A model generated the notes under the pieces. The model saw only the letters and a program-made list of their open reading frames with translations. It was not told the DNA's origin and made no database searches. A program made the position numbers and the translations under genes. Shown here one piece after another: positions 1,668-64,000 of a stretch of 64,000 bases of DNA; positions within the stretch are counted from its first letter, which is position 1; each line of letters starts with the position of its first letter. Source of the DNA: Leeuwenhoekiella aestuarii (GTDB taxonomy: Bacteria; Bacteroidota; Bacteroidia; Flavobacteriales; Flavobacteriaceae); assembly GCF_004104055.1 (NCBI RefSeq), contig NZ_QOVJ01000001.1, positions 1,116,001 to 1,180,000 on the forward strand. Reading direction: 5' to 3'.

Positions 1668-2835
1668 AGGTTATTTTAAATTTAAGGTAACGACTAGTTA
1701 GTTCTATAATATAAGAACTAATGTAATATAATTTTGCAGTTGAGCTCGAAAGTATTTTGCTAAGGTTTTGTTAGCTTTTAGGAGGTAAATACATTATTTA
1801 CAGAGTGGTTTCCGTGTCTAAGATAAATTGCCAGAAGTGTGAAATTACGCAGCAAGTAAGATTAAGAATTGATTTTACGATAACTACTTTTTCTATGAGT
1901 GCAATGGTTAGTGAAGCAGCACTTGTGTAAATTTCATTTTTCTATGGCGATGGCAAGAATAAAATCACCCCTATATATAAAGATGTATTTAGGACCTTAT
2001 GAGACTATAGTGGTTGAAAGATCAAGCGCTCCCGGTAACGGAAAAAGTACAAGAGGTACTAATGGGTTACCCAATGGGTACCGCCTCAGTGACCCACTCG
2101 AGGGCAACCCGTGATATAGCATTCAAAAACATTATATGCAGGTTCTGGTATAACTTCAGGAACCTCTATGAGCTGTAAGATGGCAAACAGCAGTGGACCG
2201 GCAATTTAGAAAATACGCTTATCGATTTTCATAACTTCTAAGTAAATAAAATGCTAAGTTGGAAAAGCTATTTTGAACTACATACAGGAAGTTCAAAAAT
2301 AAATCCTTCAGTCATGGTCCACCTCAGTAGGCAATATTTTGGGCGAATCAGATGAATTAAGCTGATTAAAGACACCGGAAAGTCTTAGGATAGTATCTGA
2401 ATAACGGGAAACTTTTTTCAAAAGCAGAGGTATTCGGTAAATACTTTTTGACTCTAAAAATAGGGGAGCTTTTCCAGAGGTATACGTAAACTTAAAAGGG
2501 TCTAAGTCGTCCCTATACCCGAACAAATTCTTTACAGTTACTTTAATTAATTATTAAGGATAGCTAATCTGTGTTAACTAAGATCATAAAAAAAAACCTT
2601 GCCTAATATGCAGCAGATTGATTTTACTTGAATTGCAAAACGTTATAATACAGATGCTATACTGCTGCAAAAGCAAGTTGAAGCAGTATAAAGAGATTTA
2701 GCGTCTAAAACAATCCTGAACCCGCTTATTTAACCCACGCGTAACCTTTAAGTAAAACCTTTTATTGAGAAATTCAATTATTTAGCACTGCGAAAAGAAA
2801 TGCATAAAACCACTAAAATATGTAGCACAAATCCA
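1668..2835. other. Long intergenic region with no convincing gene
   Basis: About 1.2 kb separates the minus-strand operon from the plus-strand susC. Two short frames (around 1899-2114 and 2308-2526) have no recognisable family, no good start context and atypical composition. They look like chance frames or decayed gene debris. The left end holds the promoter region and palindrome of the PLP-enzyme operon. The right end leads into the susC leader. Nothing else could be supported. Confidence 0.6.
1699..1720. promoter_or_regulatory. Palindromic operator candidate
   Basis: A perfect inverted repeat TAGTTCT-N8-AGAACTA with an AT-only centre lies 32 bp upstream of the ATG at 1667. Its position and dyad symmetry fit a dimeric repressor or activator site for the PLP-enzyme/DUF1611 operon. 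The cognate regulator is not in the window. Confidence 0.45.
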
Positions 2836-2866
2836 CAAAAAAACGCAGTTGCTACCAACAACTGCG
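2836..2866 (-). terminator. Minus-strand intrinsic terminator in the susC leader
   Basis: A perfect 8-bp stem CGCAGTTG/CAACTGCG (2844-2851 and 2859-2866) has a 7-nt loop. It is preceded on the plus strand by seven A residues (2837-2843), so it reads as stem plus U-tract only on the minus strand. No minus-strand gene lies to its right. The natural explanation is the end of a short antisense transcript started near the susC start codon, 42 bp away. Confidence 0.5.
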
Positions 2867-2907
2867 CCATCCATTATTAAGCATTGTGTCCAATCAATTA
2901 CTTAAAC

Positions 2908-54713: not shown

Positions 54714-55522
54714 TTCAGGCTAAATTTCGCAAAAACCGGTAAGTGGTCTGAAAGATTACGAGCCTGATCCAATTGATCACAAGTCAATACAAAGTCCAAC
54801 ACTCCGCTTTCCAGAAAAATTATTTCTTTCGAATAAAATATATTGTCAATCGCATAATTCAGGTAATTTAATCCAATACACTCTCTCTTGAGTGTGGTCT
54901 TTTGGTCGACTAGAACGGGAGTAAACCCCTTACTTTTTAATACATCAAATACGGGGTCCTGCTCCATAACGTTAAAGTCTCCTGCTAAAAGTACAGGGCC
55001 TTTTATAGCGTTGACAATATGGTGCGAAATGGCACTTATTTCGGTCTCTGGATTTTTATTATGAGGTCTTGAATGAAAATTTATGACCTTTAAGACCTTT
55101 TGATCTAAATAGAAATTTATAGTAAAGGGTTCGCGCTCTACTTCAGAATCCAACGCTGCGATTAACGTGCCTCTGTTTTTGATTTTTATGTTCGTCGTTC
55201 TCCAAATAAAGGCATAACGCTCGGTGACATATTTAGAACTGTTTGTTGGATTACTGATTACGTAATCCCATTTTGAGCCTTTTCGATTTAGAATATCTGT
55301 GAGTCTTGCTACGGCCTGTGCTCCACCGTAACCCGCTACTACTTCTTGAATAGCAACAATGTCTGCCTCCCTTACGATTTCGGCAATTTGCTCAAGTTCT
55401 TTACTGTTTTTGGTTTTTCCAAAGTCTCTAATGTTCCAGGACACTAGGGTGAGTTCTTGCTGTTGAGCAAAGGACGCTAAAGAATATAGAAGGAGTAGGA
55501 GTAACTGAAAATATGCTTTCAT
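54710..55522 (-). CDS. Secreted endonuclease/exonuclease/phosphatase-family protein
   Basis: 270 aa with signal peptide (residues 1-19, ASFAQ). DNase-I-like catalytic elements: WNIRDF (N30), AIQEVV (E60), NFHSRPHN, LLAGDFNVM, and the final LSDHLPVFAKF. It is probably an extracellular nuclease supplying nucleotides and phosphate; a phosphodiesterase of other substrates is possible. It is convergent with the response regulator, sharing 4 bp, with no terminator between them. Confidence 0.9.
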   Translation of the reverse strand: MKAYFQLLLLLLYSLASFAQQQELTLVSWNIRDFGKTKNSKELEQIAEIVREADIVAIQEVVAGYGGAQAVARLTDILNRKGSKWDYVISNPTNSSKYVTERYAFIWRTTNIKIKNRGTLIAALDSEVEREPFTINFYLDQKVLKVINFHSRPHNKNPETEISAISHHIVNAIKGPVLLAGDFNVMEQDPVFDVLKSKGFTPVLVDQKTTLKRECIGLNYLNYAIDNIFYSKEIIFLESGVLDFVLTCDQLDQARNLSDHLPVFAKFSLN

Positions 55523-55766
55523 AAAAAATTGTGTAATCCTTTTCTATTCAAAATAAAGATAGTTTTAGTAGTATGGTTTACAGAATTCTGAATGATTTAA
55601 ATTTTATAAATATTTTTTGTGTTAAAATAGACACCAATAAATCGAAAGGAAAGAGATAATATTAAAAGTAATATAGACAAAAAGTTCTTGAAATGAGGTG
55701 CTATTCGGATATGGAGAAGGCTTCAACTAAATCTACAAGTCAATTTTGAATCTAAAGTGATAATCT

Positions 55767-56345
55767 TTAAGTGACTTGCTTAAATAAATTACTGTTGAAT
55801 AATAGCCACAGAATTATTTTATCATTTTTAAAGGTCTCTCTAATTTTCTGGAAAGCAATACGCATTTGGGACTCAACTGTTTTAACTGAGATGTCTAATT
55901 TTTCCGCAATTTCTTGATATTTGAGTCCATCAACTTTATTTAATAATAAGATAGTTTTACATTTTTCAGGAAGCAGATCAATGGCTTTTCTTAACTCCAA
56001 TATTTTGTCGTGAAGAATTTCCTCATTATTTATCTCATCAATTATCGCATTGTGTTGTAGTTCTTGAATATAATTTCTTTGATTTTTAAGTTTTTTCTGA
56101 GAGTCAAGAAATAAATTATAACCAATCGTAAAAAGGTAACTCTTTGTAGATTTTGAGATATCAATTTTCGCTCTATTTGTCCAAAGTTTAATAAATGCTT
56201 GTTGAGTAAGATCTTCTGCCTCGTCTTTGTCAAAGGTTAGTGAGATAATATATGAAAACAGAGATGCATAATTGGTTTTAAAAAAAAATCTGAAGGCTTC
56301 CTCATCACCATGTATTATTCGTTGAAGCACGATTTGTTCTTGCAT
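55767..56345 (-). CDS. ECF RNA polymerase sigma factor (Bacteroidetes FecI-like)
   Basis: 192 aa with region 2 (DKDEAEDLTQQAFIKLWTNR) and region 4 (LLPEKCKTILLLNKVDGLKY, then EIAEKLDISVKTVESQMRIA). It belongs to the Bacteroidetes expansion group that works with FecR anti-sigma factors and STN-type receptors. It is divergent from fecR by 107 bp; in most such loci the two genes run in the same direction. Confidence 0.93.
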   Translation of the reverse strand: MQEQIVLQRIIHGDEEAFRFFFKTNYASLFSYIISLTFDKDEAEDLTQQAFIKLWTNRAKIDISKSTKSYLFTIGYNLFLDSQKKLKNQRNYIQELQHNAIIDEINNEEILHDKILELRKAIDLLPEKCKTILLLNKVDGLKYQEIAEKLDISVKTVESQMRIAFQKIRETFKNDKIILWLLFNSNLFKQVT

Positions 56346-56452
56346 TAGGAAAACGTTTAGAAGTTGGTATTAAAAATAATAAATAATAAAAAAATGAATA
56401 TTATTTAAGGGTTTTTGCTAAATGGCCGTATTATAATAAACAAATAGCTCAA

Positions 56453-57607
56453 TTGGATAATTTAATCGTAAAATATTTATCAAACTCTTTAACCGAAGAA
56501 GAAGCAGGAATCCTTCTTGAGTGGTTACAATATGATGAAAATAAAGAAAAATTTAAGAAATATGTTCGATTAAATCATAACATTAATTTAACACTTCAAG
56601 ATGTTGATGCAGAAAAGGCTCTAATAGAAATTTTTTCAAAAATTGATAAATCACAAGCGCCTCGTAAATTTAAAAGGTTCAAAAAGCGTAGAATTTATAA
56701 TTCTCTATATGCAGCTGCAGCCATAATTATATTATTAATAGGAGTCTGGTCAATAAGCAATTTAATTCAATCAGGATACAATGGTGAAAAAATAACTCCT
56801 TTAGCAGAGATGCCAATTACAATCAGTTTAGAGAATGGGGAAATGATTGCAATCAATACAAAAGACAGCTTAGTTAAAGATGGTAAACGAGTTATAGCTA
56901 GTCAAAACGCTTATAAGCGACAACTGAATTTTCATCAGATTTCCTCGACTTCTCTTAGTAGTGGTGTGAGATATTTGAAAATTCCTAATGGAAAGAAGTA
57001 TACTGTAATTCTTGAAGATAGTACAGTTGTTTATCTCAATAGCGGAGCTACATTAAGATTTCCGGGGTCATTTAAAGAACAAAGTAAAAGAGAAGTCAAT
57101 TTGACTGGGGAAGCCTTTTTTAAGGTCGCTAAAGATGAAGAACATCCTTTTGTGGTAAATACTCTTGGAGTATCAGTTGAAGTATTAGGGACAAGTTTTA
57201 ATGTTTCGTCTTATAAAAATTCTGAACTGTCTGAAGTAGTTCTGGTTGAAGGAAAAGTTAACATGATTGTTAATAGTGATAAGGCAGGTACTATTTTGAA
57301 GCCTGGGTATAAGGGGGCATATTCTAAAGCTAATGATATTATAGAAACGGCAAAAGTAGATACTGAATTATATACTTCTTGGATATACGGGAAACTGATC
57401 TTTAGAAATAAAACGTTGAATGAAATTTTAAGTACGTTAGAGCGCAACTTTAATGTTGAAATTGAAAACAAAAACGTCTCTCTAAAAAGTGAGAAATTAA
57501 ACGCTACCTTCAATGAAAAGGAAAGCTTGCAGCGTATTTTGTATTATCTCAAAGAAGCTTACAATATAAAATATACCGTACAAGGTAAAAAGATTATAAT
57601 CAATTAA
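56453..57607 (+). CDS. FecR-type anti-sigma regulator
   Basis: 384 aa. Cytosolic N-terminus with NSLTEEEAGILLEWL (sigma-binding type), membrane helix about residues 84-103, periplasmic FecR domain (YLKIPNGKKYTVILEDSTVV, VYLNSGATLRFPGSF, GEAFFKVAKDEEHPFVV, VLGTSFNVSSY). A C-terminal DUF4974 segment (FRNKTLNEILSTLERNFNVE) binds the STN domain of the receptor. The start is a TTG at 56453; the next in-frame Met is deep in the periplasmic domain. Confidence 0.9.
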   Translation: MDNLIVKYLSNSLTEEEAGILLEWLQYDENKEKFKKYVRLNHNINLTLQDVDAEKALIEIFSKIDKSQAPRKFKRFKKRRIYNSLYAAAAIIILLIGVWSISNLIQSGYNGEKITPLAEMPITISLENGEMIAINTKDSLVKDGKRVIASQNAYKRQLNFHQISSTSLSSGVRYLKIPNGKKYTVILEDSTVVYLNSGATLRFPGSFKEQSKREVNLTGEAFFKVAKDEEHPFVVNTLGVSVEVLGTSFNVSSYKNSELSEVVLVEGKVNMIVNSDKAGTILKPGYKGAYSKANDIIETAKVDTELYTSWIYGKLIFRNKTLNEILSTLERNFNVEIENKNVSLKSEKLNATFNEKESLQRILYYLKEAYNIKYTVQGKKIIIN

Positions 57608-57656
57608 AGACTCAATGCGTATGATGTAAAAACAAACAAAATCCAACGTATTCTTT

Positions 57657-57697
57657 AAAAACAAAAAACCGAAGAATGCTCCAACATGCTTCGGTTT
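57657..57697 (-). terminator. Minus-strand terminator in the second susC leader
   Basis: The 9-bp stem AAACCGAAG/CTTCGGTTT (57666-57674, 57689-57697) has an inner ATG/CAT extension. On the minus strand it is followed by TTTTTTGTTTTT. On the plus strand there is no T-tract, so it is directional. No minus-strand protein gene lies to its right. Confidence 0.7.
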
Positions 57698-57735
57698 ATA
57701 TAGAATGCGATTAACTTAATTAATCACACAAAAAA
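57659..57735 (-). ncRNA. Predicted cis-antisense RNA opposite the susC leader
   Basis: A minus-strand promoter (57741-57768) and a minus-strand intrinsic terminator (57657-57697) delimit a transcript of about 75 nt antisense to the leader of the following susC. Known parallel: Bacteroides loci encode antisense RNAs of this size opposite susC leaders (DonS type) that repress the locus. Existence here is inferred from signals only. Confidence 0.5.
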
Positions 57736-57740
57736 CTATT

Positions 57741-57768
57741 CAAAATTATGAAAAAATTTCTTTTTCAA
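57741..57768 (-). promoter_or_regulatory. Minus-strand promoter for the antisense RNA
   Basis: Reading the minus strand, TTG (57768-57766), 17 bp, then TAATTTTG (57748-57741) matches the flavobacterial TTG/TAnnTTTG consensus. It overlaps the susC start codon. Sense and antisense transcription would interfere. Confidence 0.5.
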
Positions 57769-60700
57769 GAAAGATATTTTCATCTTCCTAAATTTGACCT
57801 TAAGATGAAATTGAGTGTTGTCTTCCTATTATGTACTCTATTTTCAATGAATGCAAGTCATACGTATTCTCAAGGTGACGCAATATCTCTAGATATTAAA
57901 AATCAAAAGCTTTCAAAGGTACTCGAAGATATTGAGCAGCATTCAGACTACAACTTTGTCTATAAATTAAATGATATCAATACGGATCGACCTATTTCTT
58001 TACAAGTCAATAAACAGAAAATTGAGCGTGTTTTAAAAATGCTGTTTGATGATTCTGATGTGAATTACCGAATCATTGATACACAAGTTTTTTTAAAAAG
58101 AAAGTCTTCAATCATCTCAGAACCACTAACGAATACGACTGAAAATAAAAATTTTCAAACGCTAATAAAAGGTTTTATTAAGGATGAATCAGGTACTCCA
58201 TTACCCGGAATTACGGTCATGGAAAAAGGAACGGCAAATGGGACATCAACTGATTTTGATGGAAATTATGAGATCACTGTTCCAGAAAATGCAGTCTTGG
58301 TTTTTTCTGGCGTAGGTTTTAAGACTCAAGAAGTTCCTGTTAACAGCAAAACTTCGATCGATATTCAAATGATGAATGATGTTGAAGAGCTTGAAAGTGT
58401 TGTTGTTACAGCATTAGGCATAAAGAAAGAGGAACGTGCATTAACCTATGCAGTAAGCGAGGTTGATGGAGAAAGTTTTACCCAGGCTAAAGAGGTTAAT
58501 CTAGCTGATGCACTTTCTGGTAAAATAGCCGGTGTAAGTGTTTCTAATTTATCTACAGGTGCTGGAGGTTCAAGTAGGGTGACAATAAGGGGGAACACCT
58601 CTTTATCTGGGGACAACCAGCCCTTATATGTAATTAATGGTATGCCCATGGATAATACCACCTTAGGAGGAAGCGCTTCAACAAGTGGTGGTGGGTTTAA
58701 TATTGACCATGGTGATGGAACAGGAGGTATCAACCCGGATGATATAGAAACTATTAGTGTTCTAAAGGGGGCTACGGCTGCAGCTTTATACGGATCTCGT
58801 GCCTCAAATGGAGCAATAATTATCACAACAAAAAAAGGAACTCTAAATAGTGGGATCGGTATAGAGTTTAATTCAAGTTTTACCATTGATTCACCAATGG
58901 ATCTTACTGACTGGCAATATGAGTACGGAATGGGGAATGGTGGAGAGAAACCTATTAATCAGTCTGAAGCGGTTACTTGGGGGCGTAGAAATTGGGGGGC
59001 ACCCATTGATGGGTCAACATTTATTGCTTTTGACGGGCTAGAGCATCCATATACTGCCAAAAAAGATAATATCAAGAACTTTTATAATACAGGTTCAACT
59101 TTTATAAACACAATTGCGCTAAGCGGAGGTGGAGAAACTACGAGTTACAGATTTTCTGTGTCAGACACTGATAATAAAGGTGTTATACCCAATAACACCT
59201 TTAATCGTAGGATTTTCAGTTTAAATATGAGTTCAAAAATTGGTGAAAAACTTGATCTTGAAGGCTTGGCGCAATTTAATACATCAAAAGCATATAACAA
59301 AGCGAGTGCGGGGGATGCAACCGGAAATCCTAACTGGGTGAATATGTTAGCCAATACAGTAGATGTGCGTTGGCTAGATCCTGGGTATGACGAACAGGGG
59401 AATGAAATTCAATGGAATGAAACCCCATATGCCTCAAACCCTTATTTTGTAGTCAACAGGTTTCAAAACAAAGAAGATAAAGAACGCTATTTAGGACAGT
59501 TTGCTTTAACCTATCATTTGTTAGAAAATCTATCAGTCAAGGGTTCCGTAAGTAAGGACTTTACAGATTTTAGTTTCACTGCAATTTTACCTACAGGAAC
59601 ACAATATACTAATAATGCGGCAGGTGAATATCACGGATTTGATGTTACTGTTAGTGAACTCAATAGTATGCTTACTGCTAATTATAATGCAGACCTAACT
59701 GATAACATCAATTTAGGTGCCGTGGCTGGTGGCAATATTAGAAAGTATGAAAATAAGCAAACCTCCTATGATGGGACGCAGTTCATCATACCTTTTTTCT
59801 ACAGTTTTACCAACTTAGAAACGAGTACGGCAATTCCTAATACGCGTCGACTAACTACAAATTCACTTTTTGCTTCTTTAGATTTAAGTTATAAAAACTT
59901 TCTTTACTTGAATGCTACAGCTAGAGAGGATTGGTTTTCTACTTTGACAGCTTCAGACGGTAGCGATAGTGATAACAATATTTTTTATCCTTCAGTTGGT
60001 GCAGGATTAATATTTACCGAAGTTTTAAATCTCCCTCAATGGTTTAGCTACGGAAAATTGAGAGGTTCCTGGGCTCAAGTAGGAGGAGGGCTACCAGATC
60101 CATATACCCTGAATGAGAGTTATACCATGATACCTAGCAGTGGTCAGCCTCTTCAACAAGTAACTCAAGTTTCAGGACAACGCTTATTAGCTAATTCAAA
60201 CTTACGCCCTTATACGTCTACGACTTTCGAGTTGGGATTAGAGACCAAAATGTTTCAAAATAGATTGGGACTTGATGTAGCTGTTTACAAGAAGACCACA
60301 ACAGATGATATTGTTAATGCTCAAATACCGGTAACTACAGGTTATGAATATACTTATTTCAATGTTGGAAAGGTTGAAAATAAAGGAATCGAATTATTAC
60401 TAAGTGGAAAACCTATTAAGAATGAAAATTTTGTTTGGGAGGCTTCTTATAATATGGCCTATAACAAAAATGAAGTCATTCAACTTGCTGAAGGGATTAA
60501 TACTATCTCTGTAGCAAACTCTGTTGGGAATTGGGCTGAAATTCATCATGAAGTAGGAGAACCTTTTGGAATTATAAAAGGGTATTCAATTCTTAGAGAT
60601 GAAAATGGAGAAATAGTTTTTGATACGTCTTCAGGCCTACCTATGAAAAGCGAATTAAAAAAGATAGGCAATTCTGTTGCACCTTGGTCAATGGGTTTCA

Positions 60701-61200
60701 ATAATACATTTAGATATAAAAACCTATCTCTTAATATTTTAGTAGATGGGAAATTTGGAAACGATATTTTTTCTGTACTTAATGTTTATGCAACTCGATT
60801 TGGTTTGTCAAAAAGAACACTTGAAGGAAGAGTAGATGGGTTAAGTTTAAGTGGAGTCGATATGCAGGGTAATCCGTATAGCAATTATATCCCTTCAACA
60901 GATATACGTAACTATTATCAAAATTCAAAAAATTACTCAGACCAGTTTATTTACGATGGCAGCTTTGTAAAGCTTAGACAGGTGATTTTAAGCTATAATA
61001 TACCTGTTGAAAAGATAAAGCTTTTCAAAGTTCAAGCTGCCTCTCTTTCCTTCGTAGCCAGAAATCTACTTACCCTTTACAGTAAGACAGATAATTTCGA
61101 TCCCGAGTCTTCTTATACCAATAGCAATGCACAAGGATTTGAGTCTTTTTCTCAGCCAAGAACTAGAAGTTATGGGCTTAACCTTAAGTTTAATTTTTAA
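57748..61200 (+). CDS. SusC/RagA-type receptor with STN signalling domain
   Basis: 1150 aa. Signal peptide to about residue 42, STN domain (about 46-118, ISLDIKNQKLSKVLEDIEQ), carboxypeptidase-regulatory-like domain (about 140-212), and the SusC hallmark ELESVVVTALGIKKEERAL. The plug has GATAAALYGSRASNGAII, and the barrel ends SYGLNLKFNF. The STN domain talks to FecR, so cargo binding releases the ECF sigma factor. It is the import channel of this locus and is followed by susD after 11 bp. Confidence 0.95.
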   Translation: MKKFLFQERYFHLPKFDLKMKLSVVFLLCTLFSMNASHTYSQGDAISLDIKNQKLSKVLEDIEQHSDYNFVYKLNDINTDRPISLQVNKQKIERVLKMLFDDSDVNYRIIDTQVFLKRKSSIISEPLTNTTENKNFQTLIKGFIKDESGTPLPGITVMEKGTANGTSTDFDGNYEITVPENAVLVFSGVGFKTQEVPVNSKTSIDIQMMNDVEELESVVVTALGIKKEERALTYAVSEVDGESFTQAKEVNLADALSGKIAGVSVSNLSTGAGGSSRVTIRGNTSLSGDNQPLYVINGMPMDNTTLGGSASTSGGGFNIDHGDGTGGINPDDIETISVLKGATAAALYGSRASNGAIIITTKKGTLNSGIGIEFNSSFTIDSPMDLTDWQYEYGMGNGGEKPINQSEAVTWGRRNWGAPIDGSTFIAFDGLEHPYTAKKDNIKNFYNTGSTFINTIALSGGGETTSYRFSVSDTDNKGVIPNNTFNRRIFSLNMSSKIGEKLDLEGLAQFNTSKAYNKASAGDATGNPNWVNMLANTVDVRWLDPGYDEQGNEIQWNETPYASNPYFVVNRFQNKEDKERYLGQFALTYHLLENLSVKGSVSKDFTDFSFTAILPTGTQYTNNAAGEYHGFDVTVSELNSMLTANYNADLTDNINLGAVAGGNIRKYENKQTSYDGTQFIIPFFYSFTNLETSTAIPNTRRLTTNSLFASLDLSYKNFLYLNATAREDWFSTLTASDGSDSDNNIFYPSVGAGLIFTEVLNLPQWFSYGKLRGSWAQVGGGLPDPYTLNESYTMIPSSGQPLQQVTQVSGQRLLANSNLRPYTSTTFELGLETKMFQNRLGLDVAVYKKTTTDDIVNAQIPVTTGYEYTYFNVGKVENKGIELLLSGKPIKNENFVWEASYNMAYNKNEVIQLAEGINTISVANSVGNWAEIHHEVGEPFGIIKGYSILRDENGEIVFDTSSGLPMKSELKKIGNSVAPWSMGFNNTFRYKNLSLNILVDGKFGNDIFSVLNVYATRFGLSKRTLEGRVDGLSLSGVDMQGNPYSNYIPSTDIRNYYQNSKNYSDQFIYDGSFVKLRQVILSYNIPVEKIKLFKVQAASLSFVARNLLTLYSKTDNFDPESSYTNSNAQGFESFSQPRTRSYGLNLKFNF

Positions 61201-61211
61201 TACAATATTCA

Positions 61212-62744
61212 ATGAAAAATTTATATATAAAATATATTTCGCTGATCATGGTACTTTGTATTGTAAGCTCTTGTGATGAGGGTTTTGATGAAGTTAATAC
61301 AAATCCAGATGCTTCAACGAGTATTGAAGCAGAGTATATGTTTACCAAAGCCATGTATGATGCACTAAATAATAGTACAGGTACGGTATACGAATTTTCA
61401 GCAGGTGGGTTTGTTCAGCACTTTGCTACCTATTTAGAAGTGCCGGGTCTTGGAGATAAATATGTCTATACTTCAGGCGCTTATCCGTATGCGTATTTTA
61501 ATGGCGCTTATGTAGATGGGGTAAATGAAATTAGTAAAGTTTTAAATGCCGTTGAAGATGATCCTGATGAAGTTAATAAATATGCAATAGCGTTAATTTG
61601 GCAGGCTTATATTTTTCATCGAATTACTGATCTGTATGGTATGATTCCTTATAGCGAAGCCACTACAGCATATGCATCTTCAAACTTCGCTCCGGTTTAC
61701 GATACGCAGCAAACTATTTACTTGAGTATGCTGTCAAATCTGGAATCGGCAATTTCAAGTTTTGACGCTAGTAAAGAGTCCTTTAATGAGGGGGATTTAT
61801 TATATGCTGGAGATACTTCCAAATGGGAGAAATTTGCAAATTCTCTAATGCTTAGGTTGGCCATGAGGCTCACTAAAGTTGATCCAACTACTGCTCAGCA
61901 ATGGGCTCAAAAAGCTATTGCGGGTGGTGTTATAGAGGATGAAACTGATGATGCAATAATTGACTATGTCGGTGGACAAGTGATCAATAGTAATCCTATT
62001 TCTTTTCAATTAAGAAATAATAATTATAGTGCATCAAATCAAGGAACTAGCAATACGGAAGGAGGAAAGTACTCAGATACATTTATAGGCTATTTGAAGG
62101 ATAGTGATGATCCTAGATTAAATTCTATTGCTGCCGTATGGGTAGATGGAGTTCAGGTTACGGACACCGATTTGCAACAAGGTATGCCTAATGGTTTGAA
62201 TAACAGACCTGATAATTTTGCGTCACTTTCTGAACCCAATTTATCTACCATTCTAAGCCTATCCTCTTCCCTGATGGTCATAGGTAGTTCTGAAATGAAC
62301 TTATTATTAGCAGAAGCATCTATTAGGGGATGGGAATCTGGTGATGCAAAATCCTATTATGATAAAGCCATTCACAGCTCAATGAATACTATGGGGCGTC
62401 TATATGGCACAGAAGCATCAATCTCTGAAGAAGCAATTGAACAATATATTGCTACGAAACCATTTCCAACCGGTTTTGATGCGCAAATGGAGCACATACA
62501 TACTCAATTCTGGGTATCGGTTTTTCCAGATGAAATAGAAGTTTATTCCAATTGGAGAAGAACCAATTATCCTGTATTGACACCTGTAAACGTTACTGGT
62601 AATTTAACCGGAGGTACAATCCCAAGACGACTTACTTATCCACCGGGTGAAATAAGTGTAAACTCAGAAAATTATAACCAAGCAATCTCTGCACAAGGAG
62701 TCGATAACTTCACGACCAGAATATGGTGGGATGTTGCTGAATAA
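61212..62744 (+). CDS. SusD-like surface lipoprotein (SusD-like_2 type)
   Basis: 510 aa with lipobox VSSCDEGFDEV (Cys about 20) and the family start DEVNTNPDASTS. Helical segments include LIWQAYIFHRITDLYGMIPYS and a late LLLAEASIRGW. It belongs to the shorter SusD-like_2 group usually paired with STN-less or STN-type SusC for peptide or small-molecule cargo rather than classic starch SusD. It is followed by the exported RidA gene after 12 bp. Confidence 0.9.
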   Translation: MKNLYIKYISLIMVLCIVSSCDEGFDEVNTNPDASTSIEAEYMFTKAMYDALNNSTGTVYEFSAGGFVQHFATYLEVPGLGDKYVYTSGAYPYAYFNGAYVDGVNEISKVLNAVEDDPDEVNKYAIALIWQAYIFHRITDLYGMIPYSEATTAYASSNFAPVYDTQQTIYLSMLSNLESAISSFDASKESFNEGDLLYAGDTSKWEKFANSLMLRLAMRLTKVDPTTAQQWAQKAIAGGVIEDETDDAIIDYVGGQVINSNPISFQLRNNNYSASNQGTSNTEGGKYSDTFIGYLKDSDDPRLNSIAAVWVDGVQVTDTDLQQGMPNGLNNRPDNFASLSEPNLSTILSLSSSLMVIGSSEMNLLLAEASIRGWESGDAKSYYDKAIHSSMNTMGRLYGTEASISEEAIEQYIATKPFPTGFDAQMEHIHTQFWVSVFPDEIEVYSNWRRTNYPVLTPVNVTGNLTGGTIPRRLTYPPGEISVNSENYNQAISAQGVDNFTTRIWWDVAE

Positions 62745-62756
62745 AAATAGAATAAA

Positions 62757-63236
62757 ATGAAAGTAGAAAATAAAAGAAGAAACGTGTTGAAAAAAGTAGC
62801 TGCATCAATCTTTGGATTTGCAGGTGCAGCTGCATTTGGCAATAACTTGACACCGGTTATCAATAAGGATCTTTCTATATCTCATAACACAGATGATGTG
62901 GAAAATCAAGAGATACCATTGTTTTCAAGTTCTGTAGTTCATAATGGGTTAGTTTATATAGCAGGAAAAGGAGCTCATTTTGAAGGTGATATCAAGGATC
63001 ACACAGAATTTGTTCTTGATGAATTGAAAAAGGAGCTTGAGAAAGCCGGTTCTTCGATGGAAAAAGTTCTAAAAGTGAATGTCTACTTAGCTGATCTCAA
63101 TGATTATAAAGCTATGAATGAAGTATATCGAGGCAAGTTTGGAAAGAAACCCCCGGTAAGGACGACAGTCGCTGTTTATGGCGGCGTACCTGGAGATTCA
63201 CTCGTCGAAATTGACTGTATAGCCGCTCTAAAATAA
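62757..63236 (+). CDS. RidA/YjgF-family protein with Tat signal
   Basis: 159 aa. The N-terminus KRRNVLKKVAASIFGFAGAA is a twin-arginine-type signal, unusual for this normally cytosolic family. The RidA domain follows (about 52-159), with VYIAGKGAH, LKVNVYLADLNDYKAMNEVY and PPVRTTVAVYGG. The deaminase arginine (R135) and glutamate (E151 in VEIDCIA) are present, so it should hydrolyse enamines or imines. Export as a folded trimer is consistent with Tat. It is 4 bp upstream of the SelA-like gene. Confidence 0.9.
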   Translation: MKVENKRRNVLKKVAASIFGFAGAAAFGNNLTPVINKDLSISHNTDDVENQEIPLFSSSVVHNGLVYIAGKGAHFEGDIKDHTEFVLDELKKELEKAGSSMEKVLKVNVYLADLNDYKAMNEVYRGKFGKKPPVRTTVAVYGGVPGDSLVEIDCIAALK

Positions 63237-63240
63237 ACCC

Positions 63241-64000
63241 ATGATACATAGAAGAAAAGTTTTAAAGCAACTGGCAGTTTTGCCGGTTGCAGGGAGTCTT
63301 GTGCCCATTGATATGTTCTCGCCTCTTGTTCATGATTCTGATAAAGAGTCTGTTAACCCGTTAAAGAGAGATTATTTTAAAGAATTGGGGGTGAGAACTT
63401 TTATTAACGCAGCGGGAACGTATACGTTTATGACGGGCTCATTGATGAGACCTGAGGTTGTGGAAGCTATAGCAAATACCTCTGATGATTTTGTTAACCT
63501 TAATGAGTTACAGGACAAAGTTGGTGCACGCATTGCAGAATTACTCGACTGTGAGGCTGCTACAGTTACTTCTGGAGCAGCATCTGCAATTTCTCTAGGA
63601 ACTGCGGGCTGCATATCTGGAACCGATCCTAAAAATGCAGCACTTTTACCACATATAGACACTACCAAACTCAAAAGTGAGGTAATTATGCAACGTAAGC
63701 ATTCAATTGAATATGCACATGCTATTGAAGTGAGCGGGGCTAAGGTGATATATGTAGACACTAAGGAAGAGTTAGAAGCGGCGATTAATGAGAAAACTGC
63801 TATGTATTACTTTGTTAATTTCTTGAATTACGAAGGTCAAATACAATGGCAAGAGGTACTAGATATATGCCAAAAGCATAATGTACCCACGATGATTGAC
63901 TGTGCAGCAGATGTACCCCCTGTAGAAAATTTGTTCAAGTTTCAAAAAATGGGGTTTGACATGGTATGTTTTTCAGGAGGCAAGGGATTGAGGGGGCCTC
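63241..64000 (+). CDS. SelA/aminotransferase-V-like PLP enzyme with Tat signal, partial
   Basis: At least 253 aa; runs off the window. The start MIHRRKVLKQLAVLPVAG carries a twin-arginine motif. The body matches the selenocysteine-synthase/D-glucosaminate-6-phosphate ammonia-lyase group of fold-type I enzymes: FINAAGTYTFMTGSLM, CEAATVTSGAASAISL, and PTMIDCAADVPP. The PLP lysine region FSGGKGLRGP lies at the very edge. An exported PLP enzyme fits Tat transport because the cofactor is added in the cytosol. With RidA directly upstream, a lyase or dehydratase that releases enamines is the best guess. Confidence 0.88.
   Translation, partial: MIHRRKVLKQLAVLPVAGSLVPIDMFSPLVHDSDKESVNPLKRDYFKELGVRTFINAAGTYTFMTGSLMRPEVVEAIANTSDDFVNLNELQDKVGARIAELLDCEAATVTSGAASAISLGTAGCISGTDPKNAALLPHIDTTKLKSEVIMQRKHSIEYAHAIEVSGAKVIYVDTKEELEAAINEKTAMYYFVNFLNYEGQIQWQEVLDICQKHNVPTMIDCAADVPPVENLFKFQKMGFDMVCFSGGKGLRGP

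Follow-up and report, generated by a model that had tools for sequence, protein, structure and literature searches.

The question raised by this locus is whether the short gap between a fecR gene and the susC gene behind it holds a gene of its own, read from the opposite strand. The window, that is, the whole stretch of 64,000 nucleotides of Leeuwenhoekiella aestuarii that was analysed, has such a gap near its end. An initial annotation had placed there a minus-strand promoter (a TTG, a spacer of 17 nt and a -7 box) over the susC start codon, as well as a directional terminator ending the transcript after about 75 nt, and had likened the unit to the DonS-type antisense RNAs of Bacteroides. Judging from the sequence and its comparison across homologous loci, a short antisense RNA gene opposite the susC leader is very probably real and, by analogy with those RNAs, its product probably acts as a brake on susC.

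The FecR-susC gap and the predicted antisense RNA

Upstream of the gap, an ECF sigma factor (55767..56345, minus strand; TIGR02985, 130.7 bits) is divergent from a FecR-type anti-sigma factor (56453..57607, plus strand; FecR and FecR_C over the cut-off), whose start is a TTG as listed and whose reading frame is open from 56402. The fecR stop ends at 57607 and the susC ATG is at 57748, which leaves a gap of 140 bases. This susC, the gene opposed by the predicted RNA, has an N-terminal STN domain (57748..61200, plus strand; TIGR04056, 637 bits; STN, 32 bits) and is followed by a SusD-like lipoprotein (61212..62744, plus strand; SusD-like_2, 279 bits). After the SusCD pair, at 62757-63999, there is a RidA-like protein and then a class-V aminotransferase-like protein, the latter cut by the window end. 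Therefore, the transporter may take up an amino compound and not a glycan.

Regarding the promoter, the -7 box TAATTTTG (57741..57748, minus strand; consensus TAnnTTTG) overlaps the susC start codon in such a way that its first T, read from 57748 down to 57741, pairs with the A of the ATG (57748-57750). A -33-like TTG lies 17 nt from this box (57766..57768, minus strand), as the initial annotation had described. Nevertheless, this half of the promoter is not conserved: of 34 non-redundant loci of the family that carry CATANNTTTR on the start codon, 7 have a TTG at a spacer of 16-19 nt. The passages available from the work on Flavobacterium psychrophilum place the TAnnTTTG box at -12 to -5 (PMC9723704), and thus the RNA would start near 57736. 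With its end set by the U-tract, the predicted RNA would run from about 57736 to 57658 (57658..57736, minus strand), with a length of 79 nt, compared with about 75 nt in the initial annotation, and it would be complementary to positions -12 to -90 of the susC ATG.

The predicted RNA folds into two stem-loops with -23.7 kcal/mol (z -5.6), which none of 200 shuffles equalled. The 5' stem-loop (57705..57729, minus strand) is absent from the initial annotation, and it is supported by the fold of the predicted RNA and by minus-strand folding at the family loci. The terminator stem-loop (57666..57697, minus strand) consists of 9 bp, a 1x1 mismatch and 3 bp plus a U.G under a UUGGAG loop, and is followed by the U-tract UUUGUUUUU (57657..57665, minus strand), while the plus-strand tail of the same hairpin reads TTTATATAG. 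Therefore, the directional terminator of the initial annotation was recovered, closing a short predicted transcript. A simple scan for sigma-70 promoters and terminators listed neither the box nor the terminator of the window, and CATANNTTTG alone is no rarity, with 2 occurrences in the window versus 4.6 expected in shuffled sequence. Thus, the weight has to rest on the comparison across loci.

The sense strand has features of its own. At 57748-57783 the susC start codon is itself paired in the predicted fold of the sense mRNA. Directly after the fecR stop we found GCGTATGATGTAA (57617..57629, plus strand), a variant of a GC[CG]TATG element that was recovered by motif search. The element lies upstream of the hairpin in 18 of 123 homologous loci. 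The control counts were 0/123 for the other strand, 4/615 for random windows and 0/30 for SusC genes without FecR. It is often followed by an in-frame stop within one codon, and in some loci it is inside fecR. The extended pattern GCCTATGNNNTAA was not specific genome-wide (216 occurrences in the 31 genomes, 167 for the reversed control). The element may be part of a sense ECF promoter or leader, or else a two-codon upstream frame.

Recurrence of terminator and promoter box at FecR-SusC junctions

The first set of loci came from 105 FecR matches in the window genome and 30 relatives, FecR being found in 18 of these 31 genomes. We could parse 103 of the 105 loci and scanned the 77 in which 30-400 nt separate fecR from the gene behind it, the 26 others having gaps outside this range that were not scanned. 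With a threshold of E <= -10, a terminator was found on the minus strand of 67 gaps and on the plus strand of only 4, the mean being 2.3 in ten rounds of dinucleotide shuffles of the minus strand. In the window genome 8 of 9 FecR loci had a minus-strand terminator, and the ninth has a gap of 10 bases. Among the 30 SusC genes of the same genome without FecR upstream, such a terminator was present within 65 bases of the start in 2 cases and within 250 bases in 4; for this control, 35 of the 38 SusC genes over the cut-off were examined, the remaining three lying behind FecR and being included among the FecR loci.

A second set was taken from named Bacteroidota genomes by a FecR alignment search, as the best 80 of at least 586 confirmed relatives. 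One locus was unparsed, which left 79, and four gaps were outside 30-450 nt, which left 75 usable. Among these best-scoring relatives the terminator was on the minus strand in 61 gaps and on the plus strand in 3, and its carriers included Flavobacterium, Arenibacter, Euzebyella, Bacteroides, an Odoribacteraceae bacterium, Butyricimonas, Marinifilum, Pedobacter and Chitinophaga. The third set consisted of 30 loci, drawn from six genomes that have 236 FecR matches in all (two Bacteroides, Phocaeicola, Butyricimonas, Odoribacter and F. johnsoniae). Two of these loci (L249 and L241) repeat loci of the named set (L192 and L200), and 18 of the 30 had the terminator. The distance from terminator to ATG had a median of 50 nt (interquartile range 46-58, n=128).

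The presence of the box tracks that of the terminator. In the first set, CATANNTTTG was in register with the ATG at 30 of the 67 loci with a terminator, that is, exact in about half of them (45/67 in a relaxed form), versus none of the 36 others, which comprise 10 loci scanned without finding a terminator and the 26 unscanned ones. The corresponding figures were 35/61 with and 2/18 without a terminator in the named set, and 10/18 with and 2/12 without in the third set. After removing similar loci, the box was still on the ATG at 24 of 51 loci, compared with 1 of the 30 SusC genes without FecR. The enrichment was significant by Fisher's test both against the 36 FecR loci (p 2e-7) and against the 30 SusC genes (p 1.6e-5). 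If CATANNTTTG were a context kept only for translation, SusC genes in general should have it, which is not the case.

Thus, the box half of the proposed promoter holds across loci, and homologous FecR-SusC junctions share the box and the terminator with the same spacing and orientation. This is the conservation for which the initial annotation had asked as a test; it appears here across paralogs and homologs, with no close ortholog of the window susC singled out. The same annotation had presented the flavobacterial setting as a departure from Bacteroides. Nevertheless, loci in Flavobacterium, Bacteroides, Pedobacter, Chitinophaga and others show the layout as well, and therefore the case is not special to one flavobacterium. 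In Bacteroides, terminator and box were both present at the FecR-SusC junctions L192, L196, L232, L233 and L243, a combination that was missing at, among others, L193, L234 and L240.

Some genomes are rich in FecR, specifically those of the Butyricimonas locus L216 (G034, 126 matches) and of the Bacteroides MAG locus L192 (G031, 67 matches). We also observed a second minus-directed terminator hairpin in the window (2829-2876, loop TTGGTAG), 40 bases before the SusC ATG at 2911 and without FecR, which scored only 12.4 bits with the covariance model described below and has no CATANNTTTG on its SusC ATG.

Strand of the structured RNA, hairpin family and rival readings

In order to know which strand carries the structure, the hairpins were selected anew with a criterion blind to strand, namely Watson-Crick pairing alone. 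Mismatches turning into G.U pairs then favoured the minus strand by 78 to 8 in the first set (39 hairpins) and by 103 to 27 in the named set (58 hairpins), while the 16 to 12 of the third set (14 hairpins) was not significant; these counts supersede an earlier one of 157 to 18, which came from hairpins chosen for the minus strand. The U-tract was on the minus strand only in 21/39, 35/58 and 5/14 hairpins and on the plus strand only in 0/39, 0/58 and 1/14, and the fold was better on the minus strand in 35 versus 2, 49 versus 9 and 10 versus 4 cases. The stretch from start site to terminator, which was not chosen for folding, gave a mean z of -2.34 on the minus strand versus -0.41 on the plus strand in 92 distinct loci, and a fixed stretch from -50 to -10 gave -1.89 versus -0.23 in 111 loci (paired p 7e-16), its controls being near zero both at the 30 SusC genes without FecR and at 54 FecR loci without a found terminator. 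Thus, the G.U asymmetry, the one-sided U-tracts and the folding of the 5' stem-loop indicate that the structured RNA is kept on the minus strand, bearing in mind that family hairpins are mutually related and their counts are not independent events. Inside susC (+20 to +60, 92 loci) the bias is reversed, with a mean z of -1.03 on plus versus -0.58 on minus, so that the sense susC mRNA tends to fold just downstream of the start codon.

The hairpins share a recurring form, CGGGAAATG-loop-CATTTTCCG. Among 54 six-base loops of the family, 30 were TTNNNG and 7 CNNNAA, the latter being the TTNNNG form read from the other strand, compared with 0 and 1 of 44 control hairpins, which have a U-tract and come from the same DNA, were mechanically picked and in many cases are surely not terminators. 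We also observed that similar stems can carry this loop either way round, as CGCCAA or as TTGGCG (L121, L167, L170, L196 and L209 versus L067, L095 and L102), and the loop looks as if flipped by recombination between the stem arms. YUNR, the U-turn loop motif, was tried as a cause of the loop conservation and found no support: counting both strands, it was present in 45 of the 77 short hairpins of the family and in 37 of 74 controls, again picked mechanically and in many cases surely not terminators.

For the alignment and the covariance model, R1, 31 of 61 non-redundant hairpins were picked by eye, and therefore the covariation result leans towards structure. In these 31 sequences 90.9% of the cells pair, the covariation score was 0.82 versus 0.28 in shuffles, and pairs changed on both sides were 12 of 12, a value reached by 18 of 500 shuffles. 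Searching the best 150 candidates of each of the 31 genomes, R1 gave 28 matches of at least 35 bits, 26 of them antisense after FecR. The remaining two are also antisense, each lying before a SusC gene that has no FecR. At 33 bits, 28 of 33 matches were antisense after FecR; at 28.9 bits or more the 60 matches split into 34 antisense after FecR, 5 sense mirrors and 21 elsewhere, and thus the model loses specificity below 33 bits. Several matches are members of the model, so they speak for its specificity and not for discovery. In its own genome, the window hairpin is the best match (45.9 bits), its sequence being among the 31. In a sample of the phylum, where the best 32 candidates per genome were scored, 13 of 198 genomes had matches at E <= 1e-4; of 13 previously unseen matches, 9 were antisense before SusC and 4 had no recognised SusC. 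These sparse matches indicate that R1 covers only part of the family. Rfam 15 gave two matches for window positions 55500-58500 at E up to 5, both far below the gathering scores, and none for the 18 loci searched.

Could an AT-rich gap hold TAnnTTTG and a hairpin by chance, with AAATTATG as a mere translation-start context? The 4.6 copies of CATANNTTTG expected in the shuffled window would allow it for a single locus, yet the box at 1/30 SusC starts without FecR, and at 0/36 FecR loci without a found terminator versus 30/67 with one, refutes this reading at the family level, and we give it practically no credit. It is also very improbable that the hairpin belongs to the sense mRNA of susC or fecR, whether as an attenuator, a leader structure or a fecR terminator. 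The window hairpin does fold as plus-strand RNA (-13.3 kcal/mol, versus -14.2 on the minus strand) and R1 gives that strand 31 bits, but a plus-only U-tract was found in a single strand-blind hairpin of the third set, and both the G.U pairs (78 to 8 and 103 to 27) and the better folds favour the minus strand.

Other readings accept the minus strand and dispense with a working RNA. The terminator might be an insulator that just stops stray antisense transcription from susC entering fecR. Its strong directionality fits such a role, which we nevertheless regard as improbable because the terminator lies about 50 nt from a co-occurring promoter box, because 28 of the 30 SusC genes without FecR lack it within 65 bases of the start and 26 of them lack it within 250 bases, and because the stretch from box to terminator is itself folded on the minus strand. 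Somewhat less improbable, though still unlikely, is transcriptional interference, in which a promoter firing on the susC start would collide with or block the sense polymerase and the RNA would be inert. This would agree with a box kept on the start codon in fixed register at many loci. A collision, however, would not require the product to be structured, whereas on the minus strand both stem-loops are conserved, and TTNNNG loops are in 30 of 54 family hairpins and in none of 44 controls. We therefore hold it likely that the gap contains an RNA gene with a housekeeping-type promoter, whose product most likely pairs with the susC leader and represses it.

Proposed role and relation to known antisense RNAs

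As an antisense brake, the unit would work as follows. The minus-strand promoter of housekeeping type, with its -7 box on the susC start codon, would make the 79-nt RNA with its two stem-loops, ending at its own terminator inside the FecR-susC gap. A susC-susD mRNA, putatively driven by the ECF sigma factor from a start upstream of the hairpin, would pair through its leader with this RNA, which would block translation start and may also make the mRNA prone to decay. Open, A-rich leaders are probably important for translation, and a duplex reaching up to 12 bases before the ATG would close the leader. Flavobacteria start translation without Shine-Dalgarno sequences, according to the available passages of PMC9723704. 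The transporter would thus be held down until the output of the sigma factor outruns the RNA, a constitutive brake against an ECF-driven mRNA giving a threshold.

The closest known systems are DonS of Bacteroides fragilis and 32 PUL-associated cis-antisense RNAs of B. thetaiotaomicron (PMC10994844), the original source, Cao et al. 2016, being represented here by the papers that cite it. In the passages available, DonS-type RNAs are described as 78-128 nt long and divergent to susC homologs (PMC7366714). The window RNA, predicted at 79 nt with both ends placed from sequence signals, would fall within this range. Likewise, the predicted unit is divergent to a susC homolog (SusC 637 bits) whose 5' region it overlaps, so that the position and orientation claimed in the initial annotation, and the predicted size, agree with what these passages describe. 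In common with the DonS type as described there, the window unit, known by its sequence only, has its own housekeeping-type promoter (TAATTTTG) and a directional intrinsic terminator, and we found the same layout at the FecR-SusC junctions of Bacteroides loci. In contrast, the window DNA is not from Bacteroides, the substrate may not be a glycan, and the two-stem-loop anatomy and hairpin signature of the window family do not appear in the DonS descriptions compared. Layout and predicted size therefore support, by analogy with DonS as described in these papers, that the window unit would work like a DonS-type RNA.

As far as these partial sources go, repression was demonstrated for one Bacteroides PUL antisense RNA (PMC7366714, PMC10994844, PMC11697453), RNAs of this layout were seen on Northern blots of B. 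thetaiotaomicron and some of them anti-correlate with susC (PMC7366714), both correlation and anti-correlation are reported for the antisense/susC pairs of this species (PMC10994844), and the DonS-type mechanism is called unknown (PMC11697453). The FopS RNAs of B. thetaiotaomicron, as described in excerpts of PMC11697453, are alike in being small and in acting near the start codon to repress the translation of SusC, as proposed for the window unit. They differ in being a group of 14 paralogs, 9 of them intergenic, with a common seed, whereas the window RNA would be fully complementary to the leader it overlaps. In F. psychrophilum, the passages available from PMC9723704 deal with 287 antisense segments as a whole, presenting their list as a basis for further work. 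These are flavobacterial antisense transcripts too, with the sigma-A box TAnnTTTG, but the passages link none of them to the leader of a susC gene. A literature search over titles, abstract openings and passages, with the conservation claims of Cao et al. 2016 outside its scope, found no flavobacterial or phylum-wide account of such RNAs.

Regarding the use of these results, the conserved 5' stem-loop, the loop signature and the start-codon promoter point to targets for mutation, R1 is a covariance model for RNAs that match no Rfam family in the loci searched, and the two FecR-rich genomes, G034 and G031, are rich test beds for paralogous antisense RNAs. More tentatively, and with somewhat more doubt than confidence, FecR-linked SusC loci across much of Bacteroidota may carry one old family of two-stem-loop antisense RNAs, started from the SusC start codon and with the signature CGGGAAATG-UUGNNG-CATTTTCCG (the loop also flipped, CGCCAA), kept across paralogs because a common step reads the loop, which might be a kissing contact between sense and antisense RNA or a shared RNA-binding protein. 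If these loci are indeed one family, antisense control would be a regular component of nutrient uptake driven by sigma/anti-sigma pairs, and this well beyond Bacteroides.
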